Positions 3,001 to 16,323 of a stretch of 64,000 bases of DNA are shown piece by piece; positions within the stretch are counted from its first letter, which is position 1, and the number at the start of each line of letters is the position of its first letter. The translations under genes and the position numbers were made by a program. The DNA is from a bacterium (GTDB taxonomy: Bacteria > Myxococcota_A > Bradymonadia > UBA7976 > UBA1532): the NCBI GenBank assembly GCA_030426085.1, contig JAUHYW010000016.1:62001-126000 (forward strand). The letters are read 5' to 3'. The notes beneath the pieces are model-generated. The model saw nothing but the letters and a program-made list of their open reading frames with translations. It made no database searches and was not told the DNA's origin.

Positions 3001-5980
3001 CGGCGTCCATCATCCGGGCGCCGAGCCGCACCCGCTCCAGGGCCAGCGCGCTCCACCAGATCGGGCCCTCGGCCGCGTCGAGCAGCCCATCCAGCTCGGC
3101 CAGCGCCTCGGCGTCGGCGCCCTGCCGGATCTGCAACAGGTAGCGCGCCAGCCGGCTCGCCGGGTGGACCCGCTCGGTCGACGCCCGCCCCCACTGCCAC
3201 AGCGCCTGCTCGGCGTCGCCCAGGGCGCCCAGCGCGATGTGACCCGCCCGGTGGCGGGCGTGCCCCGCGGCGTCGGGGCGGTCGGCGGGCGTCGGGCCGT
3301 GCACCAGCCGATCGATCAGCTCGTCGTGCAGCCCGACCTCGTCGAGCAGCGCCCGCAGCGACCACCGGCTCAGGGCCAGCCCGGGGTCGTTCTCCACGGC
3401 GGCCCGCAGCGCCTCGAGGGCGGTGCGCTCGTCCTCCAGCGGGCGCCGGGCGATGACCGCCAGCCCGTGCAGCAGCGCCGCCAGCCGGGGCCGCTCGGGC
3501 TCGGTGGCCGCCTCGTCGATGAGGAAGCACGCCAGCCGGTGGGCCCAGGTCTGCTGCGCGGGCAGGGCGATACGCAGCCGGGGCAGCACCGCCGGGCCGT
3601 CGGGTGAGGCCGCCCGGCTGCGGGCCAGCGAGCCGGGGGGGAAGGGGCCCACCGCCGACCGCCCGGCGAAGCGGGGCACGACGCCGATGAACGGGGCCCC
3701 GAGCTGCTCGACCACTTCCGGATCGAAGGCGCTCGCGAGCGCGGCCTCGGATCCGGCCCACGCCGGCCGCAGATCGGCGAGGGGCAGCGGCCCGTCGCTC
3801 TCGGGCGGCGGCAGGGACAGCGCCTCGGGCACCGGATCGACCGGGGCGTCGGCGGTGGCGTCGGCGTCGCCGTCGGGGCCGAAAGCGGCCGGTCGATCGT
3901 ACGCCGGCGAGAGATCCACCGAGTCCCGGGTCGCCGCGTCCAGCGCGCGGGACAGCGCCACGTCGGTCGAGTCCTCCACCCGGGCGGCCTGCGGCTCGAC
4001 CGGCCCCTCGCCCGGGGCCAGCATCCGGGCCAGCTCCACCGGCTCCCGGCTCAGGGCGGCCAGCGTCGAGCGCCGATCGGGGGCCCCCGCCTCGAGGGCG
4101 TCCTCCTCGAAGAAGACGTAGCCCTCGGAGAACGGATCGAAGTCGTCGTCCAGCCCGGGCAGCTCGCCGCCGTCCTCGGGCAGCTCCAGGATCTCCAGCT
4201 CGCCCAGGCGGGGGTACTCCACCCGCACGACCCGCCGCTCGTCGCCGTCCTCGAGCAGCTCCTCGACGACCATGACCTCGGGATCGTCGGCGTCGGCGAT
4301 GTGCTCCTGCCGCCGCTCGGCCGACCGCCGGGCCAGCAGCGCCCAGGCGTCGGCGATCTGCTCGGCCGTCGGCGCCGCCGGGTCCGACGACGGCGCGGAC
4401 GGCGCCTCCTCCGGCGCCCGCCCGGGCTGGGTGTCCCGGGGCAGCGCGCCATCGAGCGTCGCCACCGCCGGCGCGGGGGCGGCCGGGGCCCGGGGCTGCA
4501 CCGCCGGCTGCTCCGCGGTCACCCGGCGCCCCGCGGCGCCCTCGTCGAAGCGGGCGAACGGATCGCCGAGCGCCCCGGTCTCGTCCTCCAGCCCGCCGCG
4601 CACCGGCGCCGCGAAGGGGTCGTCGAACGGCATCTCGGCCGGCGGCGGCGCCCCGGGCTCCTCGCCCCACCGGGCGGCGGCCGCGGCCCACAGATCGCCG
4701 TCCACCGCCCCCGCCGTCGGCCGCTCGTCGGCGATCGGCGCCGGGTCGGGCTCGGCGACCTCGTCGTCGTCGAGCAGCGCGCCCCAGCCCTCGTCGTCGA
4801 CCGACCGGCCCTCGACCTGATCGAGCACCTCGTCGAGCCAGTCCTCCCCCCCGGCGCCGATGGCCAGATCGGGGTCGAGGTCGAAGTCGTCGAGCGACTC
4901 GTCCAACTCCAGGTCGAGATCGGTGTCGAAGCCGATGGCCAGGGCGTCGGCGTCCAGCGCCGGCCGATCATCGGGGGCCTGGGAGCCGATCAGCCCGTCG
5001 CCGTCCAGCTCGCCGTCCAGGGATCCGTCGTCGAACCCGAGCCCTTCCAGCCCCGCCAGGCCGTCGGGATCCGCCAGATCGTCGAGCGGGCCGATGGTGT
5101 CCAGCCCGTCCAGATCGTTCAGCTCGTCGCCGATGACCCCGTCCAGATCGAAGTCGTCGGGCAGCGCCCCATCGGGATCGACGTCGAAGTCGTCGAACGG
5201 CGCCGCCCCCGGATCCACCGGCGGGCCCAGGGTGTCGGCCGGCGGCTCCAGATCGTCGAGGTCGAAGTCGAGATCGTCGGGCAGGGCGCCCCCGTCCACC
5301 TCGGCGCCCAGCAGCGCGTCCTCCAGATCGATGTCGTCGGGCAGCGCGCCGCCGGGGTCGAACGGATCCCCGTCCAGCGGCGCGTCCTCCCGCAAGATGT
5401 CGTCGAGGGGGATGTCGTCGGGCAGCGCGCCCGACAGCGCGCCCGGCGCCGAGCCCGGCTCGGGGGCCAGGGTGCGGCTGTCGTCCACGTCCGACTCGTC
5501 GAACACCGCGTCGAAGTCGTCGGGCAGGGCGCCGCCGAGCGCGACCGTGTCGGGGTCGAAGTCGTCGGGCAGCGCGCCCCCGACCGAGTCGTCGAGGTCG
5601 AAGTCGAAGTCGTCGGGCAGGACCCCCGACGGGCCGCCCCCCGCCGGATCATCGAGGTCGAAGTCGTCGGGCAGGGCCCCCGGCGGGGCGCCCTCCACCG
5701 TGCTGCCGACGGTGCTGCCGACCGTGCTGCCCGCCGGGCCCGGCCGGCCGGCCTCCTGCTCCTTGGCCATGATGTCGAGCAGGCCCGAGTCGACCGTCAG
5801 CAGCCCCTCGACCGGGCGCTCGTCGTCCGCCGCGCGGGGGCGCCCCTGCTCGTCGAGGGCCGCGATCTGGCTCCACGAACGGGTCGCGCGGCCGGGCCCC
5901 AGCTCGCCGAGATCCCCCCACGACTCGAGAGGCGCCTCGTCGGGCGCACCTCGCCGATCCTCGTCGTCACCGTCGGCCAT
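1..5980 (-). CDS. Giant TPR-repeat protein with long acidic N-terminus (3' end outside window)
   Basis: The open frame runs from ATG at 5980 off the left edge, so about 1,993 N-terminal residues are visible and the C-terminus is missing. An upstream GGAGG lies close to the ATG. Residues 1-600 are strikingly acidic and low in complexity, with eight copies of a GALPDD(F/I/L)D-like motif and a VGST triplet. From about residue 790 onward the sequence is an Ala/Leu/Arg-rich helical solenoid with TPR-like spacing (for example LALEALGRRTEALAEYQNAL and AALEADPDCAAAKAGAARLA). No signal peptide or membrane segment is obvious, so it is probably a cytoplasmic scaffold. The function is unknown. TPR solenoids mediate protein-protein contacts, and the acidic tail may bind a basic partner (inference). 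The long open frames on the opposite strand are antisense shadows of this gene. Confidence 0.85.
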   Translation of the reverse strand, partial: MADGDDEDRRGAPDEAPLESWGDLGELGPGRATRSWSQIAALDEQGRPRAADDERPVEGLLTVDSGLLDIMAKEQEAGRPGPAGSTVGSTVGSTVEGAPPGALPDDFDLDDPAGGGPSGVLPDDFDFDLDDSVGGALPDDFDPDTVALGGALPDDFDAVFDESDVDDSRTLAPEPGSAPGALSGALPDDIPLDDILREDAPLDGDPFDPGGALPDDIDLEDALLGAEVDGGALPDDLDFDLDDLEPPADTLGPPVDPGAAPFDDFDVDPDGALPDDFDLDGVIGDELNDLDGLDTIGPLDDLADPDGLAGLEGLGFDDGSLDGELDGDGLIGSQAPDDRPALDADALAIGFDTDLDLELDESLDDFDLDPDLAIGAGGEDWLDEVLDQVEGRSVDDEGWGALLDDDEVAEPDPAPIADERPTAGAVDGDLWAAAAARWGEEPGAPPPAEMPFDDPFAAPVRGGLEDETGALGDPFARFDEGAAGRRVTAEQPAVQPRAPAAPAPAVATLDGALPRDTQPGRAPEEAPSAPSSDPAAPTAEQIADAWALLARRSAERRQEHIADADDPEVMVVEELLEDGDERRVVRVEYPRLGELEILELPEDGGELPGLDDDFDPFSEGYVFFEEDALEAGAPDRRSTLAALSREPVELARMLAPGEGPVEPQAARVEDSTDVALSRALDAATRDSVDLSPAYDRPAAFGPDGDADATADAPVDPVPEALSLPPPESDGPLPLADLRPAWAGSEAALASAFDPEVVEQLGAPFIGVVPRFAGRSAVGPFPPGSLARSRAASPDGPAVLPRLRIALPAQQTWAHRLACFLIDEAATEPERPRLAALLHGLAVIARRPLEDERTALEALRAAVENDPGLALSRWSLRALLDEVGLHDELIDRLVHGPTPADRPDAAGHARHRAGHIALGALGDAEQALWQWGRASTERVHPASRLARYLLQIRQGADAEALAELDGLLDAAEGPIWWSALALERVRLGARMMDAGHRAPDPRWAEALLEETVRRRGGVPAVFAAIERHALARGRMSLWLSALRARFDRVMAEYDGGTLGEGLVQQALAGIFVKAGLALEALGRRTEALAEYQNALTSTPDDPYALHRAVELARRLGEHEALRRHLDRLAKLSHTAGERADAAYQMGLVAQQILGDDAAAEADFRRALAAMPTMTPALAALGRLDLRRGRLDAIQDRYADEIRELEAALRLPQSAAERRRTITAAVDRYYRLARLLEETGDAPVALDVYKRALAVDPRFLPAFEAMDRLYVRHGRWRERTALILGWVQRQHGAPMDAVGPLLTAADGLRVHLDDLENAGRIAARTLALAPDHPYAIRRASETFARLGNTAARIEVDLRWGRLEGDPRAPARLLRAAQLQELDGDPLAAAAEALPLYREALARDPESVGAVDGLLRTALRLGRTGEIVHQIETHDLAAHPSPVLALPMAEALLAAGRPDEAAELLIRWRARARAAQTLDRAADAGSLALLALACERTDHWRMLADTLEEQAALAGDRRRAVLLARAGALWELRLEEPALAADAYRRALEADPDCAAAKAGAARLAAVERGDWRPAGPAAEALARAREADARPEGTPGRAADRAAALDAVAAGADEPRTAIAWRALARGEATTTEAAAALYAAHPERGDLFARYRRRLEAAGETAGLIAALWLRLDYEDEPGRTALLTSIIGHGLRIGDTASVTEAAESLLEMDPGSLPALLALRRLGRQGGDPSASAEMGRKLTGALRAPGPAAEVHHAAALEAEARGEAPDRVRRMLTHAIELNPADDTAARALADRLQAAGEWSRLADLHRRRLSAIAAPERRRPVARELARLLADRFEDLPGAWTALRRELVAEGPDAETALLAAGIAERLGRTKDADTCFALAARAEGGRMRLPAMRAQAAARQQRGDRAGARALIEKVLRVEPRDAAALELLAELLAADRQWKGVVQVFQRLMALETAPDARADRAMAIGEIFARVYHDPRRAAGWFKRAV
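5154..5690 (-). repeat. Eight irregular GALPDD-type acidic repeats inside the TPR gene
   Basis: The sense strand repeats a codon block for G-A/V-L-P-D-D-F/I/L followed by acidic residues. Copies lie near 5680, 5620, 5570, 5520, 5425, 5340, 5280 and 5160. Spacing is irregular (about 48 to 120 bp), so this is motif reiteration in a disordered tail rather than a strict tandem array. Confidence 0.75.
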
Positions 5981-6055
5981 CGGCCTCCGAGTCTCCGAGC
6001 CCGGCGCGCCCACTGTCAAACATTCGCCGACCGCCGCCGGCCCCCGCGTGCGCCA

Positions 6056-7585
6056 TCACCATGCCAGCCGGATGCGGCCGACGGCCTTGGCCACCGGGCC
6101 GTCGTCCAGGGCCTCGTCCAGCGCCGCCCCCGGGAAGAGCGCGCCGCCCTGCACCCCCAGCTCGCCGGTGGCGATGTCGGCCAGCGAGAAGCGCCAGCCG
6201 GCGCCGAAGGCCGCCTCGACCCCGTAGAAGCGGGCCGCCGGCTCGCCCCGGTGGTTGCGGGGCTGGCCCCCGGACTCGAACGTCTCGAACGGATCGACGA
6301 ACGGCTCCGAACCCCAGGCGAGCACCGCCATGCCGGTCAGGGTCCAGGCCCCCGGGCGCCAGGTGACCCCCGGGCTGAGGTAGATCGCGTTGCGCACCGC
6401 CCCATCGGTGGGCAGCCAGTCGGCGCCCGCCGGGGCGATGCCCACCCGGTTGGGATCGGCCGCCCGCTCGGCGCTGCGCAGGCTCACCAGCCGCAGCACG
6501 TCGGGGAAGAGCACCAGCCCCACCCGGAAGTCGGGGTCGAAGGTGAACGCCCGCCACTCGTCGTCATCGGGGTCGGCGTCCCCCGAGGCGTAGCCCACCT
6601 CGACCCCCGCCGCCACCTGGGGGCAGCGCCACGCCATCTCGGCCCGCAGCGCCCAGCCGAGCCCCAGCAGATCGACCCCGGTCGGGCTCGTCGCCGGCCG
6701 CACCGCGTCGGTCTCGCCGAGCACCCCCACGATCTCACCCTCGACCTTGACCTCGGCCCCGATGAGGAACAGCGGCAGGTTCAACCGCAGGTGGGCGTCG
6801 AGCGCCGTGCGGGCCGTCTCGTCCCCGTCCTCGTCGGTCTGGATGCGGTGCACCCCGTACAGCCCGCCCGAGAGCGCGTCCCCCGGCCACGACAGCGCGC
6901 CGACGATGCGCCACGCCGTGTCGCCGTCCAGCGCCGAGGCCAGATCGTCCTGCCAGACGTGATCCCCGCCCAGCGACAGCACCGCGTCGCCCAGGGCCCC
7001 GTGGGTGAACGGCCGCAGGGGGCGCACCGAGAGCAGGACCCGGTCGACCAGATCACCGTTGCGCTTGTCGCCCAGCCGCTGCACCCAGCGATCATCGGGG
7101 TCGTCCTGCCCGTCGTCGTCGAGCAGCCCCATGCCCCAGTCGGCCCCCATCTGGCCGAACTCGACCCCGAACCACGGGAGCTGCAAGTCGATCCACGCCT
7201 GCCGCGGCTCGACCGTCGTCCAGCCGTCGTACCACACCGTCGGATCGCCATGCCGCCGCTCGACGAACGCCGCCCCGATGGGGTTGGTGTCGCCGAAGAT
7301 CTGCCCGGTCAGCACATCGATCTCGAGGTGCACGAACAGCGGGCCGGCTTCGATGGTGGGCTGGATGCGCAGGCGGTGCTCGCCGAGCAGGTGCTGCCCG
7401 GTCTCGGTCTGGTGGGCGTCGAGGGGGAAGGGGGTGAGGCCGGTGACCCGCAGCCGGTACGACCCGGGGGTCGACCAGCGCACCCGGGCGTCGGCGGCGG
7501 CGGCCAGCAGCAGCAGGGCGATGACGATGAGGGCGGCTCGGCGCACGGACCTCTCGGGCGGTCGACGGCGCAGTCTACCGGACAT
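6056..7585 (-). CDS. Outer-membrane beta-barrel protein, TIGR04551-like
   Basis: A 509-residue protein. The ATG at 7585 is preferred over a GTG five codons earlier because it directly precedes an Arg-rich n-region and a hydrophobic stretch (ALIVIALLLLAAAADA), a clear signal peptide. The mature part alternates polar and aromatic residues as in a barrel, with a run near residues 70-160 (LRIQPTIEAGPLFVHLEIDV, then FGQMGADWGMGLLDDDG and GDLVDRVLL) that resembles the TIGR04551 family known mainly from Myxococcota. That family has no assigned function. The protein ends in Trp (IRLAW), consistent with an aromatic C-terminal barrel signal. It lies 75 bp upstream of the giant TPR gene on the same strand and may be cotranscribed with it. 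Family assignment is from memory of the motif pattern, so it is moderate. Confidence 0.7.
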   Translation of the reverse strand: MSGRLRRRPPERSVRRAALIVIALLLLAAAADARVRWSTPGSYRLRVTGLTPFPLDAHQTETGQHLLGEHRLRIQPTIEAGPLFVHLEIDVLTGQIFGDTNPIGAAFVERRHGDPTVWYDGWTTVEPRQAWIDLQLPWFGVEFGQMGADWGMGLLDDDGQDDPDDRWVQRLGDKRNGDLVDRVLLSVRPLRPFTHGALGDAVLSLGGDHVWQDDLASALDGDTAWRIVGALSWPGDALSGGLYGVHRIQTDEDGDETARTALDAHLRLNLPLFLIGAEVKVEGEIVGVLGETDAVRPATSPTGVDLLGLGWALRAEMAWRCPQVAAGVEVGYASGDADPDDDEWRAFTFDPDFRVGLVLFPDVLRLVSLRSAERAADPNRVGIAPAGADWLPTDGAVRNAIYLSPGVTWRPGAWTLTGMAVLAWGSEPFVDPFETFESGGQPRNHRGEPAARFYGVEAAFGAGWRFSLADIATGELGVQGGALFPGAALDEALDDGPVAKAVGRIRLAW

Positions 7586-8103: not shown

Positions 8104-9879
8104 ATGCAGGACGCGCACGCCGGCGCCGCGCTCGTCGTCGGGATCGACTACCGGGACGGCGCCGCCCCCCCGCTGCGGGGCGCGGTCAACGACGCCCGGG
8201 CCATCGCCCGGCTGCTCGTCGAGCGGTTCGGCTTCCGCCCCGAGCGGATCCACCGCCTGCTCGACGGCGACGCCACCCGGGCCGCGATCGAAGCCGGCCT
8301 GCGCGACCTCGCCCGGCGGGCGACCCCCGGCGCGCCGGCCGTGTTCTACTTCGCCGGCCACGGCACCCGGATGCCGGCCCCCCACCTCGCCGGCGAGCCC
8401 GACCTGTTCGACGAGGCGCTGGTGCCCGCCGACCGTCCGCCGCCCGGCGCGCCCACCCGGGACATCCGCGACGACACTCTGCGCCGCTGGTTGGAGCCCA
8501 TCCGCCGGACCGGCGCCGCGCTGACCGTCATCCTCGACTGCTGCCACTCGGGCAGCGCCACCCGGGGCCCGTCCGCGGTCGCCCGCCGGGCCGCTCCGCC
8601 CCACGACGGCCCGCTGCCGCCGGGCGCCTCGCCCGAGGCCCCGACGCCGGCCGCCGCCCGCGGCCCGCTCGTCGTGCTCGCTGCCGCCGCCGACCACCAG
8701 CCGGCCGCCGAGACCCGCGACGATCCGCCCCACGGCCTCATGACCCGGACCCTGCTCGATCTGCTCGACGGCCCCGACCCGGGCGACGACCCCGGCAGCC
8801 GCCCGACCTGGGCCGAGCTGCACGACCGCCTGCGGGCCGCCATCCGCCGGACCGAGGCCCGCCAGACCCCCCAGCTCGAAGGCGACGGCGTCGATCGGAC
8901 CCTCTTCGGGGCCGCGCGCCGCCCGCTGATCGGCCACCGCCTCGCGACCGACCGCGACGGCTGGCGCCTCGACGCCGGCTTCCTCGTCGGCTTGAAGCCC
9001 GGCGACCGCCTCGACGCCGTACCCCTCGGCCGCGCGACCCCATCCGGCGCGATCCGGGTGATCGAGGCCGGCCCCTGCGTCAGCCGGGTGATCCCGATCC
9101 ACGGCGCGGTGCCCGACCCCTGCCGCGCCCGCCGCCCCGGCGACGCCGCGCCCTTCACCTTGCGGCTGCACCTGCCCGACGGCCCGCCCGCGCTCGCCGG
9201 CCTCGACTGGATCGAGCCCGCCGCCCCCGACGCCGCCGACCTGCGCCTCACCCCGACCGCCACCGGCTGGCAGCTCGCCGGGCCCCACGTCGTGACGACC
9301 GCCGTCGCCGGCGGCCCCGCGGCTCTGATCCACCGCCTGCGCCGGTGGTCGGCGTGGTTCGGCCTGCACCGCCTCGCCGGCGGCCGCTGCCCGGTCGACG
9401 TGCACCTGCGCCGACGCGGCGACGACCGCCCCCGGGACGACGCCACGCCCCTGATCCTGGCCCCGGGTGACATATATATCGTCAAGGCCCGCCACCGCGG
9501 CCCGCGCCCGATGCACCTCGCGCTGCTCGAGCTGATCGATGACGGCGCCATCGCCCACCACCCCTGGGCCGGCAGCAGCGCGCCCGGCTGGCAGTCCGCC
9601 GCCGAGCAGCCCGTCGACCCCGGGCACACGGTGTTCTTCGCCGCCCGGGCCCGCCTGAGCCCCGGCCGCCGCGCCGACCGCTGCACCTTCGTCGCCCTCG
9701 CCACCGACGCGCCGACCCGCTTCGACGCGCTCGTTCAAGGGGCCGTGCGCAGCGGCCCCGCGCCCTGGCCCGCGGTGTTGCTGCGCATGGGCCGCCGCCG
9801 GGGCGACCTGCGCGGGGCGTCCGATCGCGACCGGCCGTGGGGCGTCGGCCGCGCGGTCTGCGAGACCCGCGCCCGGTGA
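8104..9879 (+). CDS. Caspase-family (C14) protease
   Basis: A 591-residue protein starting at the ATG after a strong purine-rich RBS (GGAGGGGGG). Residues 8-150 form a caspase/metacaspase core: ALVVGIDY, the catalytic His86 in FYFAGHGT and the catalytic Cys147 in ILDCCHSGS, followed by a strand in LVVLAAAADHQPA typical of family C14. The His-Cys dyad is intact. Residues 280-590 form a second region of unknown fold, possibly a substrate or ligand sensor. No signal peptide is seen, so it is likely cytoplasmic. Bacterial caspase-like proteases are known as effectors or processors in immune and cell-death pathways. Here it opens a cluster containing two further clan-CD (CHAT) proteases and two nucleases, which argues for a related role, though the substrate is unknown. 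Confidence 0.88.
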   Translation: MQDAHAGAALVVGIDYRDGAAPPLRGAVNDARAIARLLVERFGFRPERIHRLLDGDATRAAIEAGLRDLARRATPGAPAVFYFAGHGTRMPAPHLAGEPDLFDEALVPADRPPPGAPTRDIRDDTLRRWLEPIRRTGAALTVILDCCHSGSATRGPSAVARRAAPPHDGPLPPGASPEAPTPAAARGPLVVLAAAADHQPAAETRDDPPHGLMTRTLLDLLDGPDPGDDPGSRPTWAELHDRLRAAIRRTEARQTPQLEGDGVDRTLFGAARRPLIGHRLATDRDGWRLDAGFLVGLKPGDRLDAVPLGRATPSGAIRVIEAGPCVSRVIPIHGAVPDPCRARRPGDAAPFTLRLHLPDGPPALAGLDWIEPAAPDAADLRLTPTATGWQLAGPHVVTTAVAGGPAALIHRLRRWSAWFGLHRLAGGRCPVDVHLRRRGDDRPRDDATPLILAPGDIYIVKARHRGPRPMHLALLELIDDGAIAHHPWAGSSAPGWQSAAEQPVDPGHTVFFAARARLSPGRRADRCTFVALATDAPTRFDALVQGAVRSGPAPWPAVLLRMGRRRGDLRGASDRDRPWGVGRAVCETRAR

Positions 9880-12024: not shown

Positions 12025-15000
12025 ATGAGCGACCTCGACCCCGCAGCGCTGCGGGCAGAAGCCGAGCGCCTCCTGGGCGCCCACCAGCCCTCAGCCGCCG
12101 CCGCGCTGCTCGAAGACGCGCTGGCCGCCGCGCCCGACATGCCCCCGGCCGACGCCGCCCGCCTGCGCCTCGACCTCGCCCGCGCCGAGCGCGCCCGGGG
12201 CGACCTCGAGGCCGCCCGGCGCGCGCTCGACGCGGCGGCCGCCGTCGACGGCCCCTGGCGGGCGGCGCTGCTGGGCGACGTCTTCGACCTCGAGGTCCGG
12301 GCCCTCGCCGACTCGGCCGCGCTCGACGGCGAGGCCGCCCGGCGGTGGACCGAGGCGGCCCGCGCCCGCCACCCGGCCGGCTCGCCGCAGGCCGCCTTCC
12401 ACGACACCGCGAGCGCGCTGCTCGACGCCCGGGAGCTGTTGCACGACGGCGCGTTCCCCGCGGCCCGGGCCCGGGCCGAGGCCCTCGAGCGGGCGGCGGC
12501 CGACCTGGGCGACGTGCCGCCCCGCTGGGCGACGTGGCTCCGGGTCGAGGCCGTCGTCTGCCGCGGCCGCTGCCTGCTGGCGCTCGACCGGGTCGACGAG
12601 GCCACCGCCGCCGCCACCGGGGTGCTCGCCGAGATCGACGACGTCGACGACTGGGCGGACGTCGACGCGCTCGCGGTCCGGGCCGGCGCCGCCGCCCTGC
12701 TCGCCGACTGCCTCGCCGGCAAGCCGACCAGCGCCCGCTGGGCCGCCCGGGCCCGCGCCGCCCGGGCCCGGGTGGCCGCCCGGGGGCTCTCGTTCGAGGA
12801 CGACCAGCACTTCGGCGTCCGGGCGTGGCTCGAGGCGGGCACCCGCCCCCCGATCGGCGAGCTGGTCGCCCGGGTCGGAGATCGGCTGCGGCACATCGAG
12901 TGGTCCCACCTCATCGACGTCGAGCGCGCCCTCGCGACCGGCTGGGGCCAGCCGGTGCACGACGCGATCTACGCCGAGGCGCCCATCGGCTTCGGGCTGT
13001 GGCGCGCGATCGGCGAGCGGGTCGAGCCGGTGCGCATCGCGACCGTGCTGATCACCCTCGCCACCGCGCTGTTCGGGGTGCCGCTCGCCGCCTGGCTGGG
13101 CGTCGGCTGGGGCTGGATCGCCGTCGGCCTGCTGCTGACGCTCCTCGGCGCCTGGTTCCTGCCGCGGGTCGTGCTGCGGTATCAGGTGCGCCGCGGCGCG
13201 CCGCCGCCCCCCGAGTCGGAGTGGTGGGAGCACGTCGCCCACCGCGAAGAGCTGCACGCGCTCGAGGCGGCCGCGCGCGAGATTCTGGGCCCGCACCGCA
13301 CCACCGCCACGGCGACCCTCTTCGAGCAGTTCGGCCACGCCTACGGCGCGCTGGGCGACGGCGAGGCGGCCGCCCGCTGCTTCGACGAGGTGCACCGCCA
13401 CGCCGCCCGGATCGGCTGGCCGGAGAAGGCGGCCGAGGTCGCCGAGTGGCTCGCCTGGCTGCACCGGATCGGGGGTCGGACCCACGCCGCGATCTTCCAC
13501 GCCGCGCTGGCCGTCGAGGCTCGCCAGCGCACCGCGGCCCACCTCGACCGGGTCTCGGCTTCCGATCGGGCCGGGTTCCTGCGGCGGCACCGCGCGGCGT
13601 TCACGCTGCTGGCCGATCTGCTGCTCGCCCGGGGCCAGATCATCGAGGCCGAGCGGGTGCTGGCGCTGCTCAAGGCCGACGAGCTGCGCACCTTCACCCG
13701 GGCCTTCATCGGGGCCGCCCCGCTCGCGCTCGACCCGCTCGAGATGGGCTGGCTGGCCCGCTATCGGGCGGCGGTGGAGGCCCTGCGATCCGCCGAGCGG
13801 GCCCACGAGGCCGCCCTGGCCGCCCACCGCGCCGGTGCGGGCGACGCCGAGACGGTGCGGGCCGCCGCCGAGCGGGTCGAGGCCCGCCGGGCCGCCTATC
13901 ACGCCGAGCGGGCGGCGCTCGACGACGAGATGCGGCGGGCCGACGCGGCCGCGCCGGAGCCCGAGCCGCCCCAGCAGGACCGCCCACGCGACCCGGACAC
14001 CGCCGACGCCATCGCCGCCATCGACGACGCGACCGCCATCGCGCCCGACGGGCAGTGGGCGGTGCTGAAGTACATCGTCACCGACCGCCGGCTGCACCTC
14101 ATCGCCCGCATCGGCCTCGGCGCGCCGCAGCACGTCGTCGCGCCGTGTCCCGCCGACGCGCCCGACTGGCACACCGCGCTCGCCCGGCGGGTCGCTGCGG
14201 TCCGCCAGGCCGTGCTCGACCGGCGCCACACCCGCGATCTGCCCGCCGCCCGCGAGTTGGCCGAGGCGCTGCTGCCGGCCGCGGTGCGCCGGGCCATCGA
14301 CGGGTTGACGGCGCCGACGGTGCTCTTCGCGCTCGACAGCCCCCTGCGCTACCTGCCCCTCGCCGCGCTGCCCCACCCCGACGACCCGCCCGAGGCCCCG
14401 GGCTACCTCGTCGAGCGGTGGGCCATCGCGCTCTACACCCCCGCGGCCCGCGCCGCGCTCGACCGGCGCGCGGTCGCCCGCTGGGGGGCCTCGGCCTTCG
14501 GCGTCACCCGGGGTCACGCCGGCTTCGAGCCGCTGCCCGAGGTCGGCGCCGAGCTGAGCGCCATCGCCGAGCGCCTGGGCGACGTCACCCTCGCGCTGGA
14601 CGACGACTTCACCGAGCAGGCGCTCGTCGACGGCCTCACCAGCGGCCGCCCGGTCCTGCACTGCGCGACCCACTTCCGCCTCGATCCCCACCGGGCCACC
14701 GACTCGGGGCTCTTGCTGGGCACCGGCGATCTGCTGACGCTCCAGGCGCTGGCCGAGGATCCCCGGGCCCGCTACCGCTTCGCCGATCTCGATCTGCTGA
14801 CGCTCTCGGCGTGCCAGACCGCGTTCGGCGCCGACGGCGACGGCCGCGAGGTGGAGTCGCTGGGGGTCCTCGCCCAGCGCAAGGGCGCCCGGTCGGTGCT
14901 GGCGAGCTTGTGGAAGGTGAGCGACGAGGGGACCTCGGCGCTTATGGAAGCGTTCTACGGTGAGCTGGCGGCGGGCCACGGCAAGTCCGAGGCGCTGCGC

Positions 15001-15174
15001 CGAGCCCAGCTGCGGCTGCTGGGCGGGGCGGTGGTCGGCGAGGGCGGGCCGGTGCGGGCGGCGGAGGCGTTCGATCTGTTCGGGGGCGGGCAGGCGCCGA
15101 AGGAGGCGCCGCGGCGGGCGTTCGACGTGCCCTGGTTCTGGGCCGCGTTCGTGCTGCTGGGTCGCTGGCGGTAG
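12025..15174 (+). CDS. TPR - membrane segment - CHAT-domain protease
   Basis: A 1,049-residue protein. Residues 1-320 are an Ala-rich helical solenoid (TPR-like). Residues 336-380 are two closely spaced hydrophobic segments (VLITLATALFGVPLAAWLGV and WIAVGLLLTLLGAWFLP), then a second helical solenoid follows to about residue 650. Residues 670-1049 are a CHAT protease domain (clan CD, related to caspases and separases), with His883 in LHCATHF and Cys930 in LTLSACQTAFG and the downstream strand SVLASLWKVSDEGTSALM typical of CHAT. The catalytic dyad is intact. The membrane hairpin in the middle would place both solenoids and the protease on the cytoplasmic side (inference). CHAT proteases with TPR partners occur in CRISPR-linked and gasdermin-linked immunity, but no such partner is seen in this window. 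Its upstream region is the 42-bp repeat array. Confidence 0.9.
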   Translation: MSDLDPAALRAEAERLLGAHQPSAAAALLEDALAAAPDMPPADAARLRLDLARAERARGDLEAARRALDAAAAVDGPWRAALLGDVFDLEVRALADSAALDGEAARRWTEAARARHPAGSPQAAFHDTASALLDARELLHDGAFPAARARAEALERAAADLGDVPPRWATWLRVEAVVCRGRCLLALDRVDEATAAATGVLAEIDDVDDWADVDALAVRAGAAALLADCLAGKPTSARWAARARAARARVAARGLSFEDDQHFGVRAWLEAGTRPPIGELVARVGDRLRHIEWSHLIDVERALATGWGQPVHDAIYAEAPIGFGLWRAIGERVEPVRIATVLITLATALFGVPLAAWLGVGWGWIAVGLLLTLLGAWFLPRVVLRYQVRRGAPPPPESEWWEHVAHREELHALEAAAREILGPHRTTATATLFEQFGHAYGALGDGEAAARCFDEVHRHAARIGWPEKAAEVAEWLAWLHRIGGRTHAAIFHAALAVEARQRTAAHLDRVSASDRAGFLRRHRAAFTLLADLLLARGQIIEAERVLALLKADELRTFTRAFIGAAPLALDPLEMGWLARYRAAVEALRSAERAHEAALAAHRAGAGDAETVRAAAERVEARRAAYHAERAALDDEMRRADAAAPEPEPPQQDRPRDPDTADAIAAIDDATAIAPDGQWAVLKYIVTDRRLHLIARIGLGAPQHVVAPCPADAPDWHTALARRVAAVRQAVLDRRHTRDLPAARELAEALLPAAVRRAIDGLTAPTVLFALDSPLRYLPLAALPHPDDPPEAPGYLVERWAIALYTPAARAALDRRAVARWGASAFGVTRGHAGFEPLPEVGAELSAIAERLGDVTLALDDDFTEQALVDGLTSGRPVLHCATHFRLDPHRATDSGLLLGTGDLLTLQALAEDPRARYRFADLDLLTLSACQTAFGADGDGREVESLGVLAQRKGARSVLASLWKVSDEGTSALMEAFYGELAAGHGKSEALRRAQLRLLGGAVVGEGGPVRAAEAFDLFGGGQAPKEAPRRAFDVPWFWAAFVLLGRWR

Positions 15175-15294
15175 TCAGTCGGCGACGAGCCCCGGCCCGC
15201 GGGGATTACGCGGGTATTACATACGGCCCCGATGCCTTCCGTTCGGCGGGCGGCGTGTCGCATGCTGGCCGCGCAACGAGTCGGGAGACGGACG

Positions 15295-16323
15295 ATGGCG
15301 AAGATGCTGGGAACCCAATGGCCGGTCGGGGTGTGCTTCTACGTGGGCGAGGGCGACGACGTGAAGACACTCGCCGGCCAGATGGACAAGGACATCGACA
15401 AGGCCCTCAGTGAGGCTCACGCCGACTTCGATGTCCGGCTCGGGAGCCCCATCCAACAGAATGCTGAGAAGCTGGCAACCGAGATCCAGACCGACCGGTG
15501 GTCCATCCTGCATATCGTCGCTCATGGCGCGAGCGACGGTGCGATCGCGGGACGGGATCCTTGGGGCGATCTCATGATCGAGAAGGAACGGCTGTCGCGG
15601 GTCGTACACTCCCATCGGGTCCGGCTGGCCGTGATCATGTCGTGTTTCGGGGCGCAGGTCGCCCGTGAACTCGTCGAGACCGGCGCGGTCGATGTCGCGA
15701 TCGGCATGACGACGCCCATGCCCTTCAGCGTGGCTCTGGGCTTCTCGAAAGCCTTCTATCACTCCTTGGCCCAGGGACGGTCGATCCGTCGGGCGTTCTG
15801 TGACGGGCGCGACATGGCCGGGCTCCGGGTCGATCACCTGCCCGAGGAGCTCCATCTCTTCAGCAAGCCCGACTCGGATGCACCCGACCTGAAGATGTGC
15901 GATCCGGCCGACTTCTTCCTCATGGGTCGGCGGGAGAATCGCAAAGCCATCCGGAAGATGATCAAGGCTCTCCGCCCTCACACCGGGTTTCACGTCGATG
16001 CCAGCCTGCTCGACCCGAACGGCCCGGTCTACGTCGGGGTCGCGAAGGAAGAGCTGATGATGAAGCGCTTCAACGCGGCCAAGGTGGTCATGCTGCTCTT
16101 CGAGGGCGACCAGGAAGGGGATGCCACCCTCGCCGAACTCGTGACTCGGGCCGTGCACCGGGCCGCGTCGGGCGACGTTCGCCTCTTCCCGGTCTACCTC
16201 AAGGGTCGAGGGCCCAACCCCAAGCTGCCGTTTGGCCTGATGCGTCTGGTGCCGGCCTGCCTCGACGACTTCGACGGGTCATACAAGAAGCTCGGCAAGT
16301 ACCTCGCCCGCCTCATCCCATAG
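15295..16323 (+). CDS. Small CHAT-like protease fused to a TIR-like domain
   Basis: A 342-residue protein. The start at 15295 has a GGGAGA ribosome binding site 7 nt upstream; earlier in-frame ATGs at 15232 and 15262 lack one. Residues 60-210 look like a minimal CHAT fold: His77 in LHIVAHGASDGAI and Cys117 in AVIMSCFGAQVA, followed by GMTTPMPFSVALGFSKAFY. Residues 225-342 read like a TIR topology: strand DFFLMG, helix NRKAIRKMIKALR, strand HTGFHVDASLLDPN, then AKVVMLLFEGD, an acidic helix ATLAELVTRAV and a final VRLFPVYLKGR...LPFGLM. The TIR call is inferred from pattern only. Codons use more A/T at third positions than neighbours, suggesting recent acquisition. It ends 3 bp from the convergent exonuclease gene. 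Confidence 0.72.
   Translation: MAKMLGTQWPVGVCFYVGEGDDVKTLAGQMDKDIDKALSEAHADFDVRLGSPIQQNAEKLATEIQTDRWSILHIVAHGASDGAIAGRDPWGDLMIEKERLSRVVHSHRVRLAVIMSCFGAQVARELVETGAVDVAIGMTTPMPFSVALGFSKAFYHSLAQGRSIRRAFCDGRDMAGLRVDHLPEELHLFSKPDSDAPDLKMCDPADFFLMGRRENRKAIRKMIKALRPHTGFHVDASLLDPNGPVYVGVAKEELMMKRFNAAKVVMLLFEGDQEGDATLAELVTRAVHRAASGDVRLFPVYLKGRGPNPKLPFGLMRLVPACLDDFDGSYKKLGKYLARLIP

Follow-up and report, generated by a model that had tools for sequence, protein, structure and literature searches.

Cell-death signalling in animals and plants has two signature domains, the caspase-like protease and the TIR domain. In the window, i.e., the 64,000-nucleotide stretch of a bacterial contig (JAUHYW010000016.1) analysed here, a sequence-only reading had noticed a single gene in which the two appeared to meet: a minimal CHAT protease followed by a TIR-like region, such that one protein would join a caspase-like protease with an NAD-cleaving or signalling domain. 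The locus raises the questions of whether both domains are indeed there, whether each carries its active site, and what such a protein might do.

A CHAT domain and a TIR fold on one chain

The open reading frame at 15295..16323 (+ strand) was confirmed, its 342 codons encoding a 342-aa protein with the CHAT domain first and the TIR fold second. A GGAG Shine-Dalgarno-like site lies 7 bases 5' of the ATG at 15295, and since an alternative in-frame ATG upstream, at 15232, is without a ribosome site, the start was kept at 15295.

The minimal CHAT domain (caspase-like, clan CD) takes up residues ~12-187 (15330..15855, +). Pfam CHAT (PF12770) matches the protein weakly, at 19.2 bits, under the 24-bit cut-off. 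The best fold match of the AlphaFold2 model is SAVED-CHAT 8tl0 (E 6e-9), which the family sequence profile also finds (E 2e-8). When aligned with 16 other CHAT domains of the same phylum, His77 (in LHIVAHG; 15523..15525, +) and Cys117 (in IMSCFGA; 15643..15645, +) sit on conserved columns, and their segments align with LHFIGHG and NACC of 8tl0. The His column is kept in 17/17 aligned CHATs and the Cys column in 15/17, being deleted in one homologue discussed below (L068) and replaced by Pro in another CHAT protein (L004). The CHAT dyad of the window protein is intact, as the sequence-only reading had proposed, making the CHAT half a predicted Cys/His protease.

The second half, residues ~205-342 (15907..16320, +), was identified by its homologues, by profiles and by fold search. 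The query itself gave no Pfam TIR match at E<=1; its two full-length homologues, both encoded in a sister genome, reached E 6.6e-6 and 5.2e-6 with Pfam TIR_2, narrowly missing the curated cut-off. Against a profile of eight TIRs of the phylum, the C-terminus of the query scored 33.3 bits (best of 5,000 shuffles, 8.5), a score that is not fully independent because the family profile had itself picked out most of these TIRs; a profile of two TIRs obtained in other ways gave it only 10.5 bits vs 8.0 for the best shuffle. Profile-profile comparison by HHalign put the TIR probability at 95% with the query by itself and at 99% with its family of three, and a profile in which the family was combined with three TIRs of the phylum detects AbTIR, TcpB and SARM1. 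Moreover, the family profile (A1), run over 379 phylum genomes, also pulls out separate TIR domains, and those that were checked are clear TIR_2 members by Pfam (43 to 89 bits).

When residues 196-342 were modelled alone (pLDDT 64, pTM 0.62), a fold search against the PDB returned mainly TIRs (RPS4, MAL, MyD88, AbTir, SPARTA and Cat1) and the TIR-like fold of DNPH1, with a target TM-score of 0.71 for AbTir. The models were built from shallow, 3-row alignments and have a mean pLDDT of 60-64 (60 for the full-length model); the query has a lengthened BB-loop region, where residues 236-250 fall below pLDDT 50. Even with models of modest confidence, the TIR assignment of the C-terminal half is secure, and profiles, homologues and fold matches together confirm the fusion of CHAT and TIR fold on one chain. 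The elements that had first suggested a TIR find their places in it: FFLMG (207-211) is the first TIR strand, followed by its helix, KVVMLLF (264-269) is another TIR strand, and the alpha-C helix is 277-291. A likeness of residues 217-283 to cytidine deaminases (E 0.07-0.5 in the PDB, 0.09 in NCBIfam) was rejected as chance, the TIR evidence over the same stretch being far stronger.

Active sites in the window protein and its relatives

In every alignment tried (profile mapping to AbTIR/TcpB, MAFFT and HHalign), the catalytic-Glu column of the TIR is occupied by Leu282; this column corresponds to the catalytic Glu of WTNYE in AbTIR. The Glu of ATLAELV, to which the sequence-only reading had pointed, is Glu281, one residue before the column (Glu281-Leu282, 16135..16140, +), and when the helix was compared with eight reference TIRs under BLOSUM62, the Leu282 register came out ahead for six of them. 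Thr278 (16126..16128, +) holds the aromatic position of the [WY]xxxE motif in the mapping to AbTIR/TcpB. The window protein is therefore without the catalytic Glu at the start of alpha-C and without the Trp/Tyr four residues earlier, i.e., the TIR features of NADases. Thus, of the proposed protease joined to an NAD-cleaving or signalling domain, the fusion itself stood, and NAD cleavage by this protein is unsupported. The aromatic residue is absent in all three family members; the catalytic column, however, is Glu in both full-length homologues, L067 (LLEEV) and L068 (DFEL), so other members of the CHAT-TIR family may still be NADases. Conservation of the column hence bore out the expectation of a conserved Glu for the homologues, but not for the window protein, whose TIR half probably serves the protease as a switch or scaffold rather than acting as another enzyme.

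A dual enzyme would read otherwise: with Glu281 or some other acidic residue, the TIR would cleave NAD or produce a cyclic ADP-ribose signal, and proteins would be cut by CHAT, placing both steps of type IV Thoeris on one polypeptide. The Glu kept in both homologues, the retention of both sites in the CHAT-TIR fusions of cyanobacteria and the direct adjacency of Glu281 to the catalytic column are consistent with such a protein, as is type IV Thoeris itself, in which N7-cADPR made by a TIR switches on a caspase-like protease (PMC12847820). A TIR-Ser/Thr kinase-FHA fusion of the sister genome (L070:5104-7095, G209:C52) has a TIR with the same one-residue Glu offset, and given this shared offset and the position of Glu281, the site in the window protein could conceivably be locally shifted but active. 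Leu282 in the catalytic column, Thr278 at the [WY] position and the family-wide loss of the aromatic residue nonetheless make a dual enzyme improbable.

Both full-length homologues (35% and 30% identity) come from one MAG of a sister species in the same genus (JAUHXC01, G209). Pattern scans of contigs, of limited reach, found no match with the query alone and only the two sister-genome genes with the alignment. No relatives of the CHAT-TIR family were found on plasmids (searched with the query), in phages (with L067) or on viral contigs (with the A2 alignment). The closest homologue, L067, keeps both active sites and stands by itself, flanked by genes for a ChaN-like lipoprotein and a glycine-betaine binding protein; no partner gene is common to it and the window gene.

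The other homologue, L068, is the C-terminal part of a 1131-aa protein from a Septu operon of the sister genome (L068:1467-6972, JAUHXC010000034.1), where its gene comes directly after those of PtuA (329 bits) and PtuB (210 bits) and overlaps by 1 bp. This protein comprises a weak type I methylase-like segment, a TIR-like segment, a CHAT without its Cys and a TIR with its Glu; the TIR-like segment is more degenerate than the Glu-bearing TIR. It is possibly the product of an undescribed third Septu gene. Although the Septu link comes from one paralogue in one genome, and PtuA and PtuB stand beside the family's gene at L068 only and not in the window, it indicates that the CHAT-TIR family can travel with anti-phage genes, and it is the best functional clue at hand.

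With its CHAT Cys deleted and its TIR Glu kept, the L068 protein is the converse of the window protein. One may speculate that the CHAT-TIR module was split by function through reciprocal decay within the genus, leaving a protease with a dead TIR for assembly or sensing in the window and a TIR Glu with a dead CHAT in the Septu operon; we consider this doubtful, yet if true, it would add to Septu a third gene, for a TIR/CHAT effector not described before. A broader rule, by which TIR/CHAT fusions keep one active site only, had been suggested by the window protein, L068, L004 and L009 but was ruled out by the cyanobacterial CHAT-TIR proteins and L067, which keep both. L009 (G352:C187) is a fusion in the reverse order, TIR-CHAT, with an intact CHAT dyad and a TIR that seems to be without the catalytic Glu.

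The losses in these proteins could also be those of a decaying gene, with the TIR half of the window protein already degenerate and no selected role left for the whole: its catalytic Glu and aromatic residue are gone, and the CHAT of the Septu-linked paralogue is broken. Against this stand a frame that stays open over 342 codons from a good start site, a codon-position bias of the coding type (GC3 0.83-0.84 vs GC2 0.43), a preserved fold core and the intact CHAT dyad, and we regard decay as very unlikely.

Gene setting, origin and genome repertoire

The window gene begins 120 bp after a TPR-CHAT gene on the same strand (12025..15174, +; 1049 aa, Pfam CHAT 187 bits) and faces an exonuclease gene. 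Further upstream, also on this strand, lie a Peptidase_C14 caspase gene (8104-9879) and an Rpn/YhgA-like gene (PF04754; 9938-10957), such that three caspase-like proteases, the CHAT-TIR gene counted, are encoded within ~8 kb. No TIR gene adjoins the window gene, and neither CRISPR nor cyclase genes were observed in its vicinity.

The gene's composition sets it apart from its surroundings: its GC3 of 0.84 is the lowest among 22 genes measured in the window (0.926-0.974 for the other 21), and its GC is 0.643 vs 0.745 for the window. These values point to recent acquisition, and the gene was probably acquired horizontally. In the sister genome, the exonuclease gene and the adjoining TPR gene, which flank the window gene on the right, keep their order at 82% DNA identity, and the region to the left is entirely different. 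There, the TPR-CHAT gene has only a match at the level of the CHAT domain (about 42%), and the CHAT-TIR homologue sits elsewhere, i.e., its position varies between sister genomes. A functional pairing of the window gene with the upstream TPR-CHAT gene was considered and is unsupported, neither gene being present at the corresponding place of the sister genome.

In the 10.1-Mb genome to which the window belongs (G000), 32 matches to TIR_2 (E<=1e-5) and 23 to CHAT (E<=1e-3) make up a large repertoire of conflict-system domains. Related architectures were also noted. TIR-EAD5 proteins are encoded in both genomes of the genus (L033, G209:C97, and L069, G000:C103), the TIR of L033 having Ser/Gln at the expected Glu. 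A frame of another genome (L071:825-3113 (-), G128:C921) joins a RAMP-superfamily (Cmr1-like) domain to SAVED and TIR, apparently a fusion between a SAVED-TIR effector and a subunit of the type III CRISPR kind.

In another reading, the TIR fold would be a receptor: other TIR proteins or cyclases of the genome would make a nucleotide signal, derived from NAD or not, and its binding to the TIR fold would switch on the CHAT protease. The 32 TIR_2 matches could supply such a signal, a TIR fold without its Glu could conceivably keep a nucleotide pocket, and in a protein of the same genome (L002) the partner of CHAT is SAVED, a nucleotide sensor. Ligand binding is putative, however, and the lengthened BB-loop region is a low-confidence part of the model; we consider this reading unlikely.

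Proposed function and known systems

The best explanation, to which we give about an even chance of being right, is that the window gene encodes a compact immune-type effector, probably anti-phage or programmed-death, with CHAT as the working protease and the TIR fold as its switch or assembly module. TIR-TIR contacts, with itself or with another TIR protein, would assemble the protein and bring its N-terminal CHAT domains, the working Cys/His enzymes, together, and these would thereby be activated, as SAVED does it in SAVED-CHAT filaments. The switch view draws support from the intact CHAT dyad, from Leu282 and Thr278 in the TIR motif and from the fold matches, which include MAL and MyD88, whose TIRs form assemblies, for the TIR half and an activated SAVED-CHAT filament for the CHAT half. 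An immune-type role is favoured by the foreign composition, the variable position, the Septu paralogue, the NB-ARC neighbours of the Acaryochloris fusions (below) and the genome's numerous TIR_2 and CHAT matches; the shallow models, Glu281 beside the catalytic column, the offset in L070, the lack of a shared partner gene and a Septu link from one paralogue weigh against the explanation as a whole. Computation shows the two folds, the CHAT dyad and the loss of the TIR Glu and its aromatic neighbour; protease activity, activation by assembly and an anti-phage role are what we infer from these comparisons.

The architecture is not new, since proteins with the same order and both sites intact exist on cyanobacterial plasmids. 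Like the window protein, cyanobacterial CHAT-TIR proteins (WP_235112854.1 and WP_235112365.1 from Acaryochloris plasmids, WP_035159890.1 from Calothrix sp. 336/3 and BBD62848.1 from Nostoc sp. HK-01) place CHAT before TIR and have the CHAT His and Cys; three of the four are of about the same size (365-368 aa vs 342 aa), whereas BBD62848.1 has an extra, AAA/STAND-like C-terminal part. Unlike the window protein, with Leu282 and FFLMG, they retain the catalytic Glu of the TIR, the first TIR strand being canonical (FISY/FFSY) in three of them; moreover, the Acaryochloris genes adjoin NB-ARC (STAND) genes, which the window gene does not. These proteins are annotated simply as TIR domain-containing proteins, and no paper naming a CHAT-TIR protein was found in a literature search of partial coverage. 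A profile of their TIRs gives the query 13.7 bits vs 33.3 with the phylum TIRs, and a small TIR tree with long branches sets the window family apart from them, suggesting that the fusion probably arose more than once.

Within the window's own genome, a SAVED-TIR-CHAT triple fusion (L074, G000:C109:60000-75000, ORF ~4569-6983) likewise has TIR and CHAT on one chain, but with TIR before CHAT, the TIR Glu kept, Pro at the CHAT Cys, and a SAVED sensor. EAD conflict systems use TIR and caspase effectors (PMC7159879, PMC8195603); the effector repertoire, typical of multicellular-type bacteria, is shared, whereas the effector of the window has no EAD match. SAVED-CHAT (8tl0), a type III CRISPR/CBASS protease controlled by its nucleotide-sensing domain (PMC11229360), shares with the window protein the CHAT fold, the dyad and a Rossmann-like partner, but that partner is SAVED, of which the query has no match, and here it is a TIR fold.

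The coupling of a TIR to a caspase-like protease is likewise common to the window protein and type IV Thoeris (Rousset 2025), a recent discovery of such coupling in trans in bacteria. Type IV Thoeris comprises two proteins, with a separate, adjacent TIR gene of the ThsB type, whereas the window protein is one chain whose TIR is without the catalytic Glu. If its TIR is indeed non-catalytic, a CHAT-TIR on one chain would be a minimal bacterial example of a TIR that acts as assembly adaptor for a caspase-like protease, in the manner of the adaptor TIRs of animals.
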